From NCBI GenBank assembly GCA_025462735.1, contig JAOAPC010000010.1, positions 186,001-250,000 on the forward strand: a DNA stretch of 64,000 nt, given 5' to 3'. Of this stretch, positions 15,786 through 59,470 are shown one piece after another. Below the pieces are notes generated by a model. It was not told where the DNA came from. It did not search any database and saw nothing but the letters and a program-made list of their open reading frames with translations. Origin of the DNA: Acidobacteriaceae bacterium (GTDB lineage Bacteria > Acidobacteriota > Terriglobia > Terriglobales > Acidobacteriaceae). The position numbers and the translations under genes are program-made. Each line of letters starts with the position of its first letter. Positions within the stretch are counted from its first letter, which is position 1.

Positions 15786-17168
15786 ATGGCTAATACCATC
15801 GTCATGAAATTCGGCGGCACCTCGGTCGGCGATGCCAAGGCCATCGAGCGGGTCGCTGGCATCGTGCGGGGAAGGCTCCCCCAGAGGCCGGTGGTCGTGG
15901 TCAGCGCCATGGCCCGCGTCACCGATCAGCTGCTGCAGATGGCCCGCGCTGCCGGGAATGACGACCGGAAGACTGCGCTAACCCTGGCCCGCGAGCTCCG
16001 AGAACGCCACTACAATACGGCGGGCGAACTGTTGGGGACTGCTCTCTTCACTCAATTTCACGGCGACCTCGGAACCGAGTTTGAGGAATTAGAAGAACTG
16101 TTGCGGGGCATTGCTGCCGTGGGCGAGCTGACGCCCCGGACTACTGATCACGTAGCATCTTTCGGCGAAATCCTTTCCAGCAAGCTGGTCGCCGCAGCGC
16201 TTTCTGCGCACGGAATCGAATCAACATTGGTGGATGCCCGCGACTGTATCGTGACTGACGAAGCCTTTACCCGTGCCGCACCCTTATATGACGAAACCAA
16301 CTCTAGGCTCCGCGAGCAGGTGCAGCCGCTAATTGAACAAGGACGCGTTCCAGTAATGGGTGGCTTCATCGGCGCGACTCGCACCGGAATTACGACAACC
16401 GTCGGACGCGGCGGATCGGACTTTTCTGCGGCCATTGTTGGCGCGGGATTGGGTGCCGAAAAAATTGAAATATGGACAGACGTCGATGGGATGATGACCA
16501 CCGATCCGAATCTGTGCCCTGATGCCCGGCGGATTAAAGTAATCAGCTTCGAGGAAGCTGCCGAGTTGGCCTACTTCGGCGCCAAAGTCCTGCATCCGGC
16601 GACCGTGCTTCCCGCCATCCAAAAAAACATCCCGGTTTACATTTTGAATTCGCAGAATCCTTCTTGCGAAGGCACCCGCATTGCTGCCCGTGCTCCACAC
16701 TGCAAGAACTTTTTCAAGGCCATAGCTGCAAAGAAGCGGATCACCATCATCGACATTGCCGCGCCGCGCATGCTGCTGGCACACGGCTTCTTGAAAGCCA
16801 TTTTCGACGCCTTCGATCGTCATCGTATTGCCATCGATGTGGTCTCGACCTCCGAAGTCAGCGTTTCGCTAACCGTAGATTCAAACGAATCGATCCCTGC
16901 TCTGGCGGCCGATCTTTCCCGTCTGGCCGACGTGAAATACGAAGGCCGCAAGGCCATCGTCTGCCTGGTGGGCGAAAATCTGCGCGAAGTTCCCGGAATC
17001 GCCGCCCACGTCTTCGGCCAACTGACCGACGTGAAAATCCGCATGATTTCGCAAGGCGCTTCGGAGATCAACCTGACCTTCGTAGTCGATGAAGAGCAAG
17101 TCCCTGGCATAGTTCAGCGGTTGCACAAGACTTTCTTTGCTGATCCGGATCCGGAAATTTTCGCGTAA
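15786..17168 (+). CDS. lysC: Aspartate kinase, lysine/DAP-cluster copy
   Basis: 460 residues. Amino-acid kinase domain begins VMKFGGTSVGDA, with VVSAMARVTDQLL, VTTSVGRGGSDF-like TTVGRGGSDFSA and EIWTDVDGMMTTDP. Two ACT domains follow (ITIIDIAAPRMLLAHGF and VCLVGENLREVPGIAA), where an end-product amino acid binds. It phosphorylates aspartate in the first step of the family pathway. Position between asd and dap genes implies the lysine/diaminopimelate branch and feedback by lysine, which is an inference. A paralogue with hom lies at 56627. No lysine riboswitch motif was seen upstream. Confidence 0.94.
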   Translation: MANTIVMKFGGTSVGDAKAIERVAGIVRGRLPQRPVVVVSAMARVTDQLLQMARAAGNDDRKTALTLARELRERHYNTAGELLGTALFTQFHGDLGTEFEELEELLRGIAAVGELTPRTTDHVASFGEILSSKLVAAALSAHGIESTLVDARDCIVTDEAFTRAAPLYDETNSRLREQVQPLIEQGRVPVMGGFIGATRTGITTTVGRGGSDFSAAIVGAGLGAEKIEIWTDVDGMMTTDPNLCPDARRIKVISFEEAAELAYFGAKVLHPATVLPAIQKNIPVYILNSQNPSCEGTRIAARAPHCKNFFKAIAAKKRITIIDIAAPRMLLAHGFLKAIFDAFDRHRIAIDVVSTSEVSVSLTVDSNESIPALAADLSRLADVKYEGRKAIVCLVGENLREVPGIAAHVFGQLTDVKIRMISQGASEINLTFVVDEEQVPGIVQRLHKTFFADPDPEIFA

Positions 17169-56118: not shown

Positions 56119-56371
56119 GAAATGTCTCCAGGAGGTATACGTCGACACTACAACCAGCAAAGACGAACGACGACGCCTGATTCCAGATCGCGCGCACCAC
56201 GAGCTGTGTATATCTTTGGTACCGCGAGTCGAGGGCAAAAGTACAATTCAGAATTTCGATTCGGCGAATGGAAATTTCAGGAAACTCTGTACATCCGCTG
56301 CCCCACAACTCTTAAGATAATCGATGTCGCCTCTTAAAACGTTTTTTCGATTCGTCCCATCGAAAAACCCG

Positions 56372-56401
56372 TTCGTGATGCGGCTCCGGTTCCGGTATAG
56401 T
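56372..56401 (+). promoter_or_regulatory. Promoter of the threonine leader
   Basis: TTCGTG (56372-56377), 18-bp spacer, TATAGT (56396-56401). Transcription would begin at about 56408-56411, at or just before the leader ATG. A second TATAGT at 56602-56607 might give a weak internal promoter past the attenuator. Confidence 0.55.
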
Positions 56402-56410
56402 GGCTTCGGT

Positions 56411-56491
56411 ATGTCGCCTATGATCCAGACAATGTCGTCGGTGCCCACCCGCACAACGGGCACACGAATTACTGTCTGGCGTGGGCGCTGA
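56411..56491 (+). CDS. Threonine-rich attenuator leader peptide (thrL-type)
   Basis: A 26-residue frame: MSPMIQTMSSVPTRTTGTRI then TVWRGR and TGA. Six of 26 codons are Thr (56429, 56447, 56453, 56456, 56462, 56471), five of them within nine codons, with two Ile codons. E. coli ThrL is likewise Thr/Ile-rich. No Shine-Dalgarno is visible; with the promoter at 56396 the mRNA may be leaderless. ATGs at 56420 and 56432 are in the same frame. Stalling at Thr codons would steer the hairpins that follow. Function is inferred from layout, not from family similarity. Confidence 0.75.
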   Translation: MSPMIQTMSSVPTRTTGTRITVWRGR

Positions 56492-56560
56492 GCGAATCCC
56501 AAGAAATCTGCTCAAGACCCACGGCCAGGAAGAACAACCGGCTGGTGGGTCTTTCGTTTT
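56481..56560 (+). promoter_or_regulatory. Transcription attenuator: antiterminator and terminator hairpins
   Basis: Terminator: AAGACCCAC (56514-56522) pairs with GTGGGTCTT (56545-56553), with inner GCC/GGC, followed by TTTCGTTTT. Antiterminator: GTGGG (56481-56485) with CCCAC (56518-56522) and GAGC (56490-56493) with GCTC (56510-56513); it uses the same CCCAC, so only one can form. Further upstream CCAGACA (56425-56431) pairs with TGTCTGG (56473-56479) and GTGCCC (56441-56446) with GGGCAC (56458-56463). The leader stop codon lies inside the antiterminator arm. Confidence 0.75.
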
Positions 56561-56626
56561 ATGGCACGCTCTTCCGAACCCGCAGCGTAGGCGAGGATGG
56601 GTATAGTCTTCTAGGATGGTATTCGC

Positions 56627-58117
56627 ATGATTGTGATGAAGTTCGGCGGCACTTCAGTTGAGAGCGCCGAGGCCATTGAACGCGTTGCACAAATCGTCGC
56701 CAGCCGCCGCGAGAAGCTGCCATTGGTGGTCGTGAGCGCGATGGCCAAGGTCACAGACCAGCTTGTGACCATGGGACAGCTGGCTGCTTCTGGTGATTCC
56801 GACGCGAGTCTTCAATTATTTCAAGCCATGCGGGAGCGCCATTTTTCGACGGCAAAAAGCTTGCTCGGGGAAAAACGCGGTGCGAGTATGGCGCCGAAAC
56901 TTGAGACACACCTTTCTGAGCTGGAAAACTTTTTGCGCGGATTAGCCGCCGTGCGCGAGCTCACCCCGCGCGGTAGCGACTACCTGCTTTCATTCGGAGA
57001 ACTGCTCTCCAGCTTAATTGTGGCCGATGCATTCACCATTCGGGGTTTGAATGCCGTGTGGGTAGATTCGCGCGCATGTGTCGTCACCGACGCCAAGCAT
57101 ACGCGCGCCATTCCGCGGATGTCCGAAACGCGGGAGAAATCCAAGAAGAAGATCGCGCCTCTTCTCTTGAAAAAGAGAATTCCAGTGATGGGAGGATTTA
57201 TTGCGGCAACCGCTGAGGGCGTGCCCACAACTCTTGGCCGCGGCGGGTCAGATTATTCTGCCGCGATTATCGGCGCCGCGCTCGATGCCGACCGCATTGA
57301 GATCTGGACCGACGTCGAAGGAATGATGACCACCGATCCCAGACTCTGTCCGGAAGCGAAAACCATCAAGCAAATCAGCTTCAACGAAGCTGCCGAGCTG
57401 GCGTATTTCGGCGCCAAGGTCCTGCATCCTGCTACTTTGCTTCCCGCGATCCACAAAAATATTCCGGTGTACGTGCTCAACTCTAAGAATCTGAAAAGCA
57501 CGGGTACCGAGATCACGGCCCAAGCCCCGCGCAGCCGAGACGTCTTTCGCGCGATCACCGCCAAAACCGGCGTGAGCATTATCAACGTGGTGGCTTCCCG
57601 CGGAATCATGGTGCACGGCTTCCTGCGATCGGTTTTCGAAGCGCTCGACCGGCACTCGACATCTGTGGACATAGTCGCCATTTCCGAAGTCAGTATGTCT
57701 TTCACCATGGACAGCAAGCGCCTGCCCAAAGCGCTGCTGGCGGAACTGGAAGAGATCGCGGACGTGACTTGTGACGACAAGCAGGCCATCGTTTGTCTCG
57801 TTGGCGAGGACATTCACGGAAAGCCTGGTATTGCCGCCAGCGTGTTTAACACTATCGCGGATGCGGAAGTAAACATCCGCATGATTTCGCAAGGAGCTTC
57901 GGAAATTAACATCAGTTTCGTGATTCAGGAAAGCGATGTCCCGAAAGCTGTCCGTCATCTGCACGCGCAGTTCTTCCCTGCAGCGGCGAAATCGTTGGTG
58001 CACAAAAAAAATGGGAGTGGGAAACGCGCACGAGTGAATGGACGCGGAAGCTTGCCGCAAAGAGCCCGCGCGGCCAGTGCAAGCGCCGCCACGGTTGTAG
58101 AACTGGCGCAAGACTGA
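56627..58117 (+). CDS. Aspartate kinase, threonine-operon copy
   Basis: 496 residues. Starts VMKFGGTSVESAEAIER; VVSAMAKVTDQL, TTLGRGGSDYSA and EIWTDVEGMMTTDP are kinase motifs. Two ACT domains follow (SIINVVASRGIMVHGF; CLVGEDIHGKPGIAASVFNTIA). The last 45 residues are a basic Lys/Arg/Ser/Ala tail (KKNGSGKRARVNGRG) absent from the 15786 paralogue. Lies 30 bp before hom and downstream of the Thr attenuator, so it is presumably the threonine/methionine-branch isozyme. A weak AGGA precedes the ATG. Confidence 0.94.
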   Translation: MIVMKFGGTSVESAEAIERVAQIVASRREKLPLVVVSAMAKVTDQLVTMGQLAASGDSDASLQLFQAMRERHFSTAKSLLGEKRGASMAPKLETHLSELENFLRGLAAVRELTPRGSDYLLSFGELLSSLIVADAFTIRGLNAVWVDSRACVVTDAKHTRAIPRMSETREKSKKKIAPLLLKKRIPVMGGFIAATAEGVPTTLGRGGSDYSAAIIGAALDADRIEIWTDVEGMMTTDPRLCPEAKTIKQISFNEAAELAYFGAKVLHPATLLPAIHKNIPVYVLNSKNLKSTGTEITAQAPRSRDVFRAITAKTGVSIINVVASRGIMVHGFLRSVFEALDRHSTSVDIVAISEVSMSFTMDSKRLPKALLAELEEIADVTCDDKQAIVCLVGEDIHGKPGIAASVFNTIADAEVNIRMISQGASEINISFVIQESDVPKAVRHLHAQFFPAAAKSLVHKKNGSGKRARVNGRGSLPQRARAASASAATVVELAQD

Positions 58118-58147: not shown

Positions 58148-59470
58148 ATGAAACCCGTAGCCAATTTGACCGATTCAGAAGCTGCTGCTTCTTCTTTGGA
58201 CCAAACTTCCACGACTCTGAACATTGCCATCATAGGTTTCGGAACTGTCGGCAGATCGGTCGCTCGAATCCTTTCGGAGCGTTCAAGCGCAGATCTACGC
58301 CTGACTCACATCTTCAACCGCCAGATCGCGCGCAAGCGAGTTGGCGAGCTCCCTGAAACGATCCGCTGGACCGAAGACATTAATGATGTCCTTTCTTCAG
58401 ATGCTGATGTCGTTGTTGAACTCATCGGCGGACTTGAACCAGCAAGCGAGTGGATTCGGCGCGCACTGAAATCCGGTAAGTCAGTGGTAACCGCGAATAA
58501 GCAGCTCATAGCCCGCCATGGCGCGGAGTTAGTGCGTCTTGCACGAGAAAATGGTCAGCATATCGCCTTCGGTGCTTCGGTAGCCGGGGGCGTGCCAGTC
58601 ATCTCTGGCTTGCAGGAAGGTCTTGCAGGCGATGAACTCGTAGAGTTGTACGGGATACTGAACGGCACCTGCAATTACATTTTGACGAGAATTGAAAGCG
58701 CCGGGGTGAGTTTCGCGGAAGCGTTGCAGGAAGCGCAGAAGCTCGGTTTTGCGGAAGCTGATCCTACCGACGATGTTGACGGGTTCGACGCGCGCGCCAA
58801 ACTCACGATTCTGGCGCGGACCGGACTGCGTGTCTCCGCCGATCTTGAGAGTATTTCTGCGAAAACTATTTCAAGCATTGAGCCGGTGGATTTCGAGTAC
58901 GCCAAGTTGCTCGACTGCACCATCCGCCAACTGTCGCGTGCCAGGAAAACATCGAAAAAGCTATTCGCAACGGTTGGGCCGGCGCTGGTCCACGCTTCAT
59001 CACCGCTGGCGCGGGTTGAAGGCGCACGCAATCTGGTAATGTCCACTGGCAAATTCGGCGGCGAAACCGTTTTTGGCGGTCATGGTGCCGGAGGGCATCC
59101 AACTGCCGTCGCCGTCGTTTCCGACCTGATCGCAATTGCGCGCTCCCGGCAGGTAAATGGCGCAGCTTTGAATGAAGCCGAAGGCGAGATTCCAACGCTT
59201 TCCGTCAGCCCCGACTTTACCTCACGCCATTATCTGCGCTTCACCGTGCAGGATGAGCCGGGAATCATTGCGTCACTGGCAACGATTTTTTCTCGCCTGG
59301 GAATCAACATCGATTCAGTTTTTCAGAAGCCAGGATATTCGAAATCGAAGCTCCCGTTCGTAATCACACTGGAACCCTGCCCCGCATCGCTGGTCGAGAA
59401 GGCATTAACGCAGATTGCTTCGCTGAAATTTCACGTTCAACCCTGCTTGAATTTGCCGATCTTAGATTAG
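58148..59470 (+). CDS. hom: Homoserine dehydrogenase
   Basis: 440 residues. NAD(P)-binding IAIIGFGTVGRSVARIL, TANKQLIARHG, catalytic region GILNGTCNYILTRIE and EADPTDDVDGFDARAK (conserved acidic and Lys residues), then a C-terminal ACT domain (RFTVQDEPGIIASLATIFSRLGINIDS) where threonine normally inhibits. Reduces aspartate semialdehyde to homoserine. Coupled with the aspartokinase upstream. thrC and thrB are not in this window. Confidence 0.95.
   Translation: MKPVANLTDSEAAASSLDQTSTTLNIAIIGFGTVGRSVARILSERSSADLRLTHIFNRQIARKRVGELPETIRWTEDINDVLSSDADVVVELIGGLEPASEWIRRALKSGKSVVTANKQLIARHGAELVRLARENGQHIAFGASVAGGVPVISGLQEGLAGDELVELYGILNGTCNYILTRIESAGVSFAEALQEAQKLGFAEADPTDDVDGFDARAKLTILARTGLRVSADLESISAKTISSIEPVDFEYAKLLDCTIRQLSRARKTSKKLFATVGPALVHASSPLARVEGARNLVMSTGKFGGETVFGGHGAGGHPTAVAVVSDLIAIARSRQVNGAALNEAEGEIPTLSVSPDFTSRHYLRFTVQDEPGIIASLATIFSRLGINIDSVFQKPGYSKSKLPFVITLEPCPASLVEKALTQIASLKFHVQPCLNLPILD

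Follow-up and report, generated by a model that had tools for sequence, protein, structure and literature searches.

A probable threonine attenuator ahead of an aspartokinase-homoserine dehydrogenase operon in Acidobacteriaceae, with relatives that carry other sensor codons

In Escherichia coli, the thrL leader precedes the aspartokinase/homoserine dehydrogenase genes with a Thr-rich leader peptide and with competing antiterminator and terminator structures, and it places these genes under Thr/Ile control. Its entry in Rfam is RF00506 (Thr_leader). The acidobacterial leader that we describe here shares with thrL the Thr-rich leader, the competition between antiterminator and terminator, and the type of operon that follows. 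It is unlike thrL in that it has no covariance-model match, precedes separate genes for aspartokinase (AK) and homoserine dehydrogenase (HSD), is probably leaderless, carries fewer Thr codons (in its class mostly the rare ACA), and belongs to a different phylum.

In mycobacteria, leaderless polycysteine short ORFs attenuate the downstream operon (Canestrari et al. 2020, as cited in PMC13236596 and PMC9031893). The Cys relatives of the acidobacterial leader resemble such leaderless Cys-run ORFs, whereas the acidobacterial scaffold, in another phylum, has a defined terminator and also serves Thr and BCAA operons. According to the relevant part of PMC7298713, the RNA of Sinorhizobium meliloti trpLE(G) begins at the ATG of the leader ORF, and stalling at cognate codons leads to the antiterminator; our leader is similar in its probable start at the leader ATG and its predicted stall-dependent antiterminator but concerns Thr rather than Trp, and we claim no homology. 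Corynebacterium glutamicum ilvBNC, as outlined in an excerpt of PMC11857589, combines an anti-antiterminator, an antiterminator and a terminator with BCAA codons and has been studied by mutation. The three-hairpin logic is common to both, while the sensor codons there are those of BCAA and the acidobacterial leader is known from sequence; here, too, no homology is claimed. For the Acidobacteria themselves, short leader genes before other genes have been presented as statistics, with no amino acid named in the pertinent sections (PMC4833913), and attenuators have been predicted, in the corresponding sections of PMC2965389, without functions; leaders of the present kind may be among these unannotated predictions. 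In the open-licence PMC literature on acidobacterial attenuation, we found no description of a family with a shared scaffold or of its Thr member. The kind of element is known; this member, its phylum and, above all, a shared scaffold with changing sensor codons are undescribed in that literature.

The leader lies in a stretch of 64,000 nucleotides, hereafter the window, which is part of a 4.36-Mb draft genome (G000:C13:186001-250000); its features are collected in Table 1. We consider it very likely that this leader is a ribosome-mediated transcription attenuator, which sets the aspartokinase-homoserine dehydrogenase operon by the supply of Thr (probably Thr plus Ile). Direct support for this reading comes from the parts themselves, their conservation, the native pairing of three helices, and the match between sensor codons and gene function.

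Table 1. Features of the leader and of the operon that follows it (positions in the window)
Feature	Position	Strand	Remarks
Perfect 9-7-9 inverted repeat, TTTTTCGAT-N7-ATCGAAAAA	56343-56367		Candidate operator; 28 bp upstream of the -10 element
-10 element, TATAGT	56396-56401	+	TATATT/TATAGT, 7-9 nt from the start codon, in the seven leader-bearing genomes of the window's genus
Leader peptide ORF, MSPMIQTMSSVPTRTTGTRITVWRGR and stop	56411-56491	+	26 codons, ATG 56411, TGA 56489-56491; homologous ORFs in relatives
Segment 1, CCAGACA	56425-56431	+	Protector helix 1:2; MFE structure, partner-swap test z -10.9
Sensor region, ACC CGC ACA ACG GGC ACA CGA ATT ACT	56447-56473	+	Five Thr codons in nine
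CGAATTA motif (codons CGA ATT A..)	56465-56471	+	Kept in most Thr leaders (alignments A1, A2, A4)
Segment 2	56473-56485	+	TGTCTGG (56473-56479) pairs with segment 1; CTGGCGTGGG (56476-56485) pairs with segment 3
Hairpin TGAGC (56489-56493)/GCTCA (56510-56514)	56489-56514	+	Holds the TGA stop; inner part of the antiterminator
Intrinsic terminator	56516-56560	+	Arms GACCCACGGCCAG..CTGGTGGGTC, U-rich tail TTTCGTTTT; between leader ORF and aspartokinase
Segment 3, GACCCACGGCCAG	56516-56528	+	3' arm of the antiterminator and 5' arm of the terminator; supported by the folds and by partner swaps for 2:3 and 3:4
Segment 4, CTGGTGGGTC, and U-rich tail, TTTCGTTTT	56542-56560	+	Fold, covarying pairs, swap test 3:4 z -8.6
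Aspartokinase, regulated gene 1	56627-58117	+	NCBIfam NF006570, E 7.1e-154, above the curated cut-off
Homoserine dehydrogenase, regulated gene 2	58148-59470	+	NCBIfam NF004976, E 2.8e-125, above the curated cut-off

A first-pass annotation of this DNA had placed an aspartokinase-homoserine dehydrogenase operon after the leader and a terminator hairpin with a U-rich tail 66 bp ahead of it. Both genes indeed match NCBIfam models above the cut-offs, and the hairpin was found, its tail ending 66 bp short of the aspartokinase ATG (56627). A consensus scan for promoters and terminators called neither the leader promoter nor the terminator at 56516-56560, and on a measure of antiterminator strength the leader site ranked fourth among the 40 terminator-like sites in the window. 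Taken alone, so unexceptional a site would suit a plain terminator that acts constitutively, or an sRNA end; either would loosen in part the coupling of the operon to its promoter, the ORF would be there by chance, and the small RNA itself might be the product. Since its rank leaves the locus indecisive by itself, the comparative evidence decides. The same genome encodes a second aspartokinase, at about 15798-17141 in the window and 3' of asd (by eye), and a regular-expression check found no terminator-like match upstream of it.

The ATG start, the 26 codons and the six Thr, five of them within nine codons, had all been claimed for the leader ORF and were confirmed at 56411-56491. Thr occupies codons 7, 13, 15, 16, 18 and 21, five of the six falling in codons 13-21; the cluster, given earlier as 56453-56473, is real and slightly wider (56447-56473). 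At the local Thr frequency of 0.0515 (six window genes), the chance of at least five Thr in some nine of 26 codons is 3.6e-4. Such clusters occur in five of the 554 short ATG ORFs on both strands of the window, a count that takes nested starts apart, and these five are four nested starts of the leader ORF and one minus-strand ORF. At this locus the leader stop codon lies 3 nt past segment 2, and the last Thr codon (56471) is too near segment 2 to be useful.

The leader fold is more stable than those of 200 of 200 shuffled sequences (z -4.8), and it consists of the protector helix 1:2, the TGAGC/GCTCA hairpin with the stop codon, and the terminator. If segment 1 is removed, the antiterminator folds best; in it CTGGCGTGGG pairs with CCCACGGCCAG (within 56516-56528), with an extension by TGAGC/GCTCA, a pairing that recurs in several orthologous leaders; the stability of the antiterminator stretch alone is not unusual (z -1.3; 19 of 200 shuffles as good). 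This architecture is the four-segment arrangement of classical attenuators. Segments 2-4 had been described in the first-pass annotation, but the protector helix (56425-56431/56473-56479) had been missed. The antiterminator that it claimed is predicted here too, with the stop codon in the inner TGAGC/GCTCA hairpin, but the 5' arm starts at 56476, not at 56481.

A search with the aspartokinase against 61 genomes returned orthologues of at least 70% identity in nine (G000, G002-G007, G012 and G031), and a homologous leader precedes all nine of them. Another genome of the same genus (G001, 85% complete) has an aspartokinase of 56% identity only and no orthologue of the one in the window. More distant aspartokinases in G010, G011, G018, G021 and G022 likewise have leaders; L016 and L020, at which the terminator check covered the wrong side, are outside every leader count. 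The six closest named relatives of the aspartokinase (L148-L153), at 69-80% identity, belong to metagenome-assembled genomes labelled Acidobacteria gp1, Acidobacteriota or Acidobacteriaceae. Within the window's genus, the seven leader peptides have 26-27 residues and ends like GTRITVWRGR, and the leader ORF is open in the same register in all seven.

We also built a covariance model, R1, from 14 leaders before aspartokinase genes, with the terminator as its only structure. Its sole site in the window is the leader locus, apart from a chance-level antisense overlap (E 0.67), and it matches 95 of 200 genomes of the window's family (E up to 0.05); the strongest 70 matches, down to E 3.9e-5, were examined. 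The loci analysed number 73, two of them duplicates, with representatives scanned and the rest assigned by similarity. Aspartokinases follow at 36 and homoserine dehydrogenases at two, and the other targets are NirA/sulfite-reductase-family, CysD, CysK, CysG-type, rhodanese/sulfurtransferase, IlvB, IlvC and IlvD genes, the NirA and rhodanese/sulfurtransferase matches being below curated cut-offs; L084, L099 and L104 are without a named downstream gene. At L099 (G009:C303), a four-Cys run stands before a 435-aa protein with no NCBIfam match at E 1e-10.

In 69 of the 73 loci, each segment was paired with its own partner and with those of other loci over 5000 permutations; the duplicates L107 and L116 were left out, as were L113 and L117, in which segment 3 was not found. 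Swaps and permutations, here and below, ignore shared ancestry, so that the figures are inflated and are not exact probabilities, but their direction is consistent: native partners outpair swapped ones in helix 1:2 (-26.4 vs -21.4 kcal/mol; z -10.9, 0/5000; natives win at 60 of 69 loci), in helix 2:3 (-19.3 vs -17.6 kcal/mol; z -6.8, 0/5000; 50 of 69) and in helix 3:4 (-20.7 vs -19.4 kcal/mol; z -8.6, 0/5000; 46 of 69). Helix 1:2 beats a shuffled segment-1 region at 64 of 69 loci. The same holds within the Thr class (n=36), at z -8.8 for 1:2, -5.6 for 2:3 and -6.3 for 3:4 (0/5000 each), and within the Cys class, at 0/5000 for 1:2, 36/5000 (weak) for 2:3 and 4/5000 for 3:4. Among the terminator pairs, 16 cells are changed on both sides (0/500 shuffles), and the pairing has its best register at slide 0 and falls off at every slide. 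This outpairing by native 1:2 and 2:3 partners, together with the register kept open in the seven genus-level leaders and with sensor codons that track gene function and are biased in codon choice and position (see below), makes the plain terminator very improbable. A chance combination of terminator and ORF was rejected on the helix swaps, the codon-function match, and codon bias and position.

A different mechanism might act on the same hairpins, namely a ligand riboswitch, a T-box or a protein-binding antiterminator, for which the ORF would be incidental and CGAATTA the recognition site. It is true that CGAATTA is better conserved than the Thr codons in the Thr leaders, but in most of the Cys and BCAA relatives the scaffold lacks this motif and comes with matching codons, and a cmscan of 56350-56640 against 4227 Rfam families, Thr_leader included, gave no match at E up to 5. 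We give this mechanism scarcely any credence. At the gathering threshold, the whole window yielded no Rfam cis-element and a single tRNA. An Rfam riboswitch, a T-box and a lysine riboswitch were each rejected as candidates on the zero Rfam matches.

The sensor codons of the relatives follow the genes that they precede. Leader ORFs were picked by a rule neutral to their content, and nine loci proved difficult for it: it settled on another frame at L048, L059, L087, L102, L104, L105 and apparently L113, and it gave no ORF at L083 and L090, both of which by eye seem to have a Thr-rich ORF with a TTG start. The Thr fraction of the leader is 0.178 in aspartokinase/homoserine dehydrogenase loci (n=36) vs 0.052 elsewhere (0/20000 permutations), the Cys fraction is 0.208 with sulfur assimilation genes (n=20) vs 0.031 (0/20000), and the Leu/Val/Ile fraction is 0.407 with ilv genes (n=5) vs 0.166 (0/20000). 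Cys enrichment was not seen under the neutral rule in the four rhodanese-type loci (4932/20000). CCC is found in 17 of 20 Cys-class loci and in none of the 36 of the Thr class. The first-pass annotation had proposed an alignment of orthologous leaders as a check for a Thr cluster with hairpin covariation, and this check came out positive: the leader stands before nine of nine orthologues, native partners win in all three helices (0/5000 each), and Thr is enriched before the expected genes, as given above. At least four Thr are present in 20 of 22 Thr-class loci outside model training vs 8 of 14 training loci. The number of Thr per leader is nevertheless loose, from 1 to 9, with fewer than four in 6 of 14 training leaders under the neutral ORF choice; Thr-poor examples are L052 (3 Thr), L048 (1 Thr, 4 Ile), L057 (3 Thr, 7 Ile) and L071 (3 Thr, 6 Leu).

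Codon choice and position were analysed with some of the nine problem loci left out. In Thr leaders, ACA accounts for 107 of 188 Thr codons vs 37 of 754 in downstream genes (p 1e-56), and in Cys leaders TGT accounts for 80 of 112 Cys codons vs 15 of 159 downstream; a sensor that works by stalling would be expected to favour such rare synonyms. Over 27 Thr loci, Thr-codon density peaks at 0.30-0.39, 18-30 nt before segment 2, reaches 0.21-0.28 at several places farther up, and is 0.02 at segment 2. Over 17 Cys loci, Cys-codon density peaks at 0.88 about 24 nt before segment 2. The footprint of a ribosome extends about 15 nt each way, so that one stalled at the peak 18-30 nt before segment 2 would leave this segment free. 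The CGAATTA motif (Arg-Ile-Thr/Ser codons) occurs in most Thr leaders, often twice (L056-L073 and others), and AATT/AATT pairing accounts for part only of its conservation.

These conserved Arg-Ile-Thr/Ser codons (CGA ATT A..) raise the possibility, which we find rather doubtful, that the attenuator is bivalent or chiefly Ile-sensing, and that Ile starvation derepresses the operon, in the manner of the Thr/Ile control of E. coli thrL. The Ile fraction is 0.079 in Thr-class vs 0.021 in Cys-class leaders, a comparison of the Thr class with the pooled Cys, rhodanese and other loci gives 0/20000 permutations for Ile, and L048 and L057 hold 4 Ile to 1 Thr and 7 Ile to 3 Thr. The mean Thr fraction of the Thr class (0.178) is, however, more than double that of Ile; the use of rare codons is seen for Thr, the one of the two for which it was examined; and CGAATTA may serve RNA pairing instead, as AATT/AATT extends helix 1:2 in several leaders. 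The interpretation as a Thr attenuator, already made in the first-pass annotation, is supported by the orthologue leaders, the helix swaps and the Thr enrichment, and its signal is probably Thr plus Ile because the Thr number is loose and Ile is also enriched.

A promoter-like pair had been proposed upstream of the ORF. Its -10 element, TATAGT, is good and conserved, but the -35 element looks weak on inspection by eye, and the scan for consensus promoters calls none here. When the best in-frame ATG was picked per locus, with the control given an equal number of tries, a -10-like hexamer was present 5-13 nt before the start in 49 of 69 leaders vs 9.8 +- 2.6 at random places, and a Shine-Dalgarno-like sequence in 2 of 69 vs 3.9 +- 1.9. 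From the -10 spacing, transcription would start near 56408, with the ATG at 56411. This spacing and the lack of a Shine-Dalgarno sequence suggest that the leader mRNA is probably leaderless or nearly so, which had been a guess in the first-pass annotation and now finds support across the 69 leaders.

Ribosome stalling, the transcript end, the start site and the direction of the response, as we infer them for the Thr attenuator, would combine as follows. Transcription would start at or a few bases from the leader ATG, and with such a start a 70S ribosome could initiate on the 5' end of the nascent RNA. With charged Thr-tRNA plentiful, the ribosome would reach the TGA at 56489 and cover segment 2, whereupon segment 3 would pair with segment 4 and the polymerase would stop near 56560. 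With Thr-tRNA short, the ribosome would stall in 56447-56464, within the loop of helix 1:2, and block this helix; segment 2 would stay free, 2:3 would form in place of the terminator, and the operon would be read. If the leader were left untranslated, 1:2 and 3:4 would form and transcription would stop.

The inverted repeat upstream of the promoter is perhaps the operator of some regulator, a candidate second layer of control, and would likely be read by a repressor or activator of amino-acid genes. Its pattern has one match in the window, with 0.02 expected by chance. With up to 4 of 18 mismatches and a spacer of 7, it lies upstream of 12 of 36 Thr, 2 of 5 BCAA (both of them ilvD leaders), 2 of 19 Cys and 0 of 4 rhodanese-type leaders; shuffled upstream regions have 7-8 mismatches to it on average. 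The copy at 56343-56367 is the sole perfect one in its own genome, where two forward sites have at most two mismatches, as many as for a reversed-pattern control. As near-copies are thus no commoner than in the control, the evidence is confined to the perfect copy and to the positions seen in relatives.

Alignment A3 of the wider family holds two antisense matches (L051 minus, L089 plus); both are omitted from A4, from which a second covariance model, R2, was made with 70 members. In its own genome the window leader scores E 8.7e-19 with R1 and E 6.9e-13 with R2, by construction, as the locus trained both models. We count as members of the family those loci that match R1 or R2 and whose leader ORF runs over segments 1 and 2, and the window leader is one of them. 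This genome contains four family members (E up to 10), with Thr, Cys, Cys and His as sensor codons. One Cys leader (L076/L116, G000:C5:103720-103838, E 1.5e-5) precedes a NirA/sulfite-reductase-family gene and the other (L118, G000:C9:30716-30826, E 0.032) a CysG-type gene, both assigned by similarity. The His leader, MLTSRHHHHHHHAHCATAGVCG (L117, G000:C20:47008-47111, E 0.0036), has seven consecutive His before hisI-like (by eye) and hisG genes and a terminator of different sequence, and we regard it as a probable His attenuator. Two further loci, L106 and L107, each consist of a Val-rich leader and ilvB; they lie about 8.7 kb from each other on the same contig (G132:C52), and the stretch that was compared does not differ between them, which points to a recent duplication or an assembly artefact.

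At E up to 0.001, R2 picks up 94 of the 299 class genomes, from families f1, f5, f7 and f8. Of the 27 class loci listed, one repeats L068, and in the other 26 the leader ORF contains Cys, as judged by eye. Across the phylum R2 matches 23 of 297 genomes (E up to 0.01), nine of them outside the window's family. These extra-family matches include, by eye, Trp-bearing leaders before TrpE and DAHP synthase, Ile- or Val/Ile-rich leaders whose targets are threonine dehydratase and acetolactate synthase, and Cys runs ahead of CysH and uroporphyrinogen methyltransferase, the target matches to TrpE, threonine dehydratase and homocysteine synthase being below curated cut-offs. They are weak (E 1e-5 to 0.01) and some, such as L134, have no evident sensor run, and not all of the phylum matches may be homologous. 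R2 was also run on five genomes from other phyla, where its top match reached E 0.185. Elsewhere among the acidobacterial families, L130, L138, L135, L144 and L133 are candidate leaders for Trp, Ile, Val/Ile and Met/Cys; their targets are trpE, DAHP synthase, threonine dehydratase, acetolactate synthase and homocysteine-synthase-like genes. At L140 and L145 (the latter by eye), a poly-Cys leader stands ahead of a peroxiredoxin-like gene, which a Cys attenuator would not usually be expected to control; the gene after L140 matches NCBIfam peroxiredoxin models at E 2.2e-56, below the cut-off.

We hypothesize that one homologous scaffold spans the window's class (Terriglobia), and perhaps reaches further in Acidobacteriota, and that exchanges of its sensor-codon cassette have made related leaders responsive to Thr, Cys, BCAA and perhaps His, Trp, Met and Ile at different operons, mostly as leaderless mini-mRNAs; the family would then be re-addressable. 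R1, although trained solely on aspartokinase leaders, scores Cys-class leaders at 36-49 bits (L118, at 24, excepted), which favours homology; between this and leaders that evolved independently, we hold the chances to be about even.

From codon content and gene function, the whole set of acidobacterial leaders gains predicted specificities. Scaffold and sensor codons vary independently of each other among these leaders, a natural series on which one can test how the amino acid sensed by an attenuator comes to change. More generally, they allow amino-acid regulation to be predicted in soil bacteria that are known here solely as metagenome-assembled genomes.
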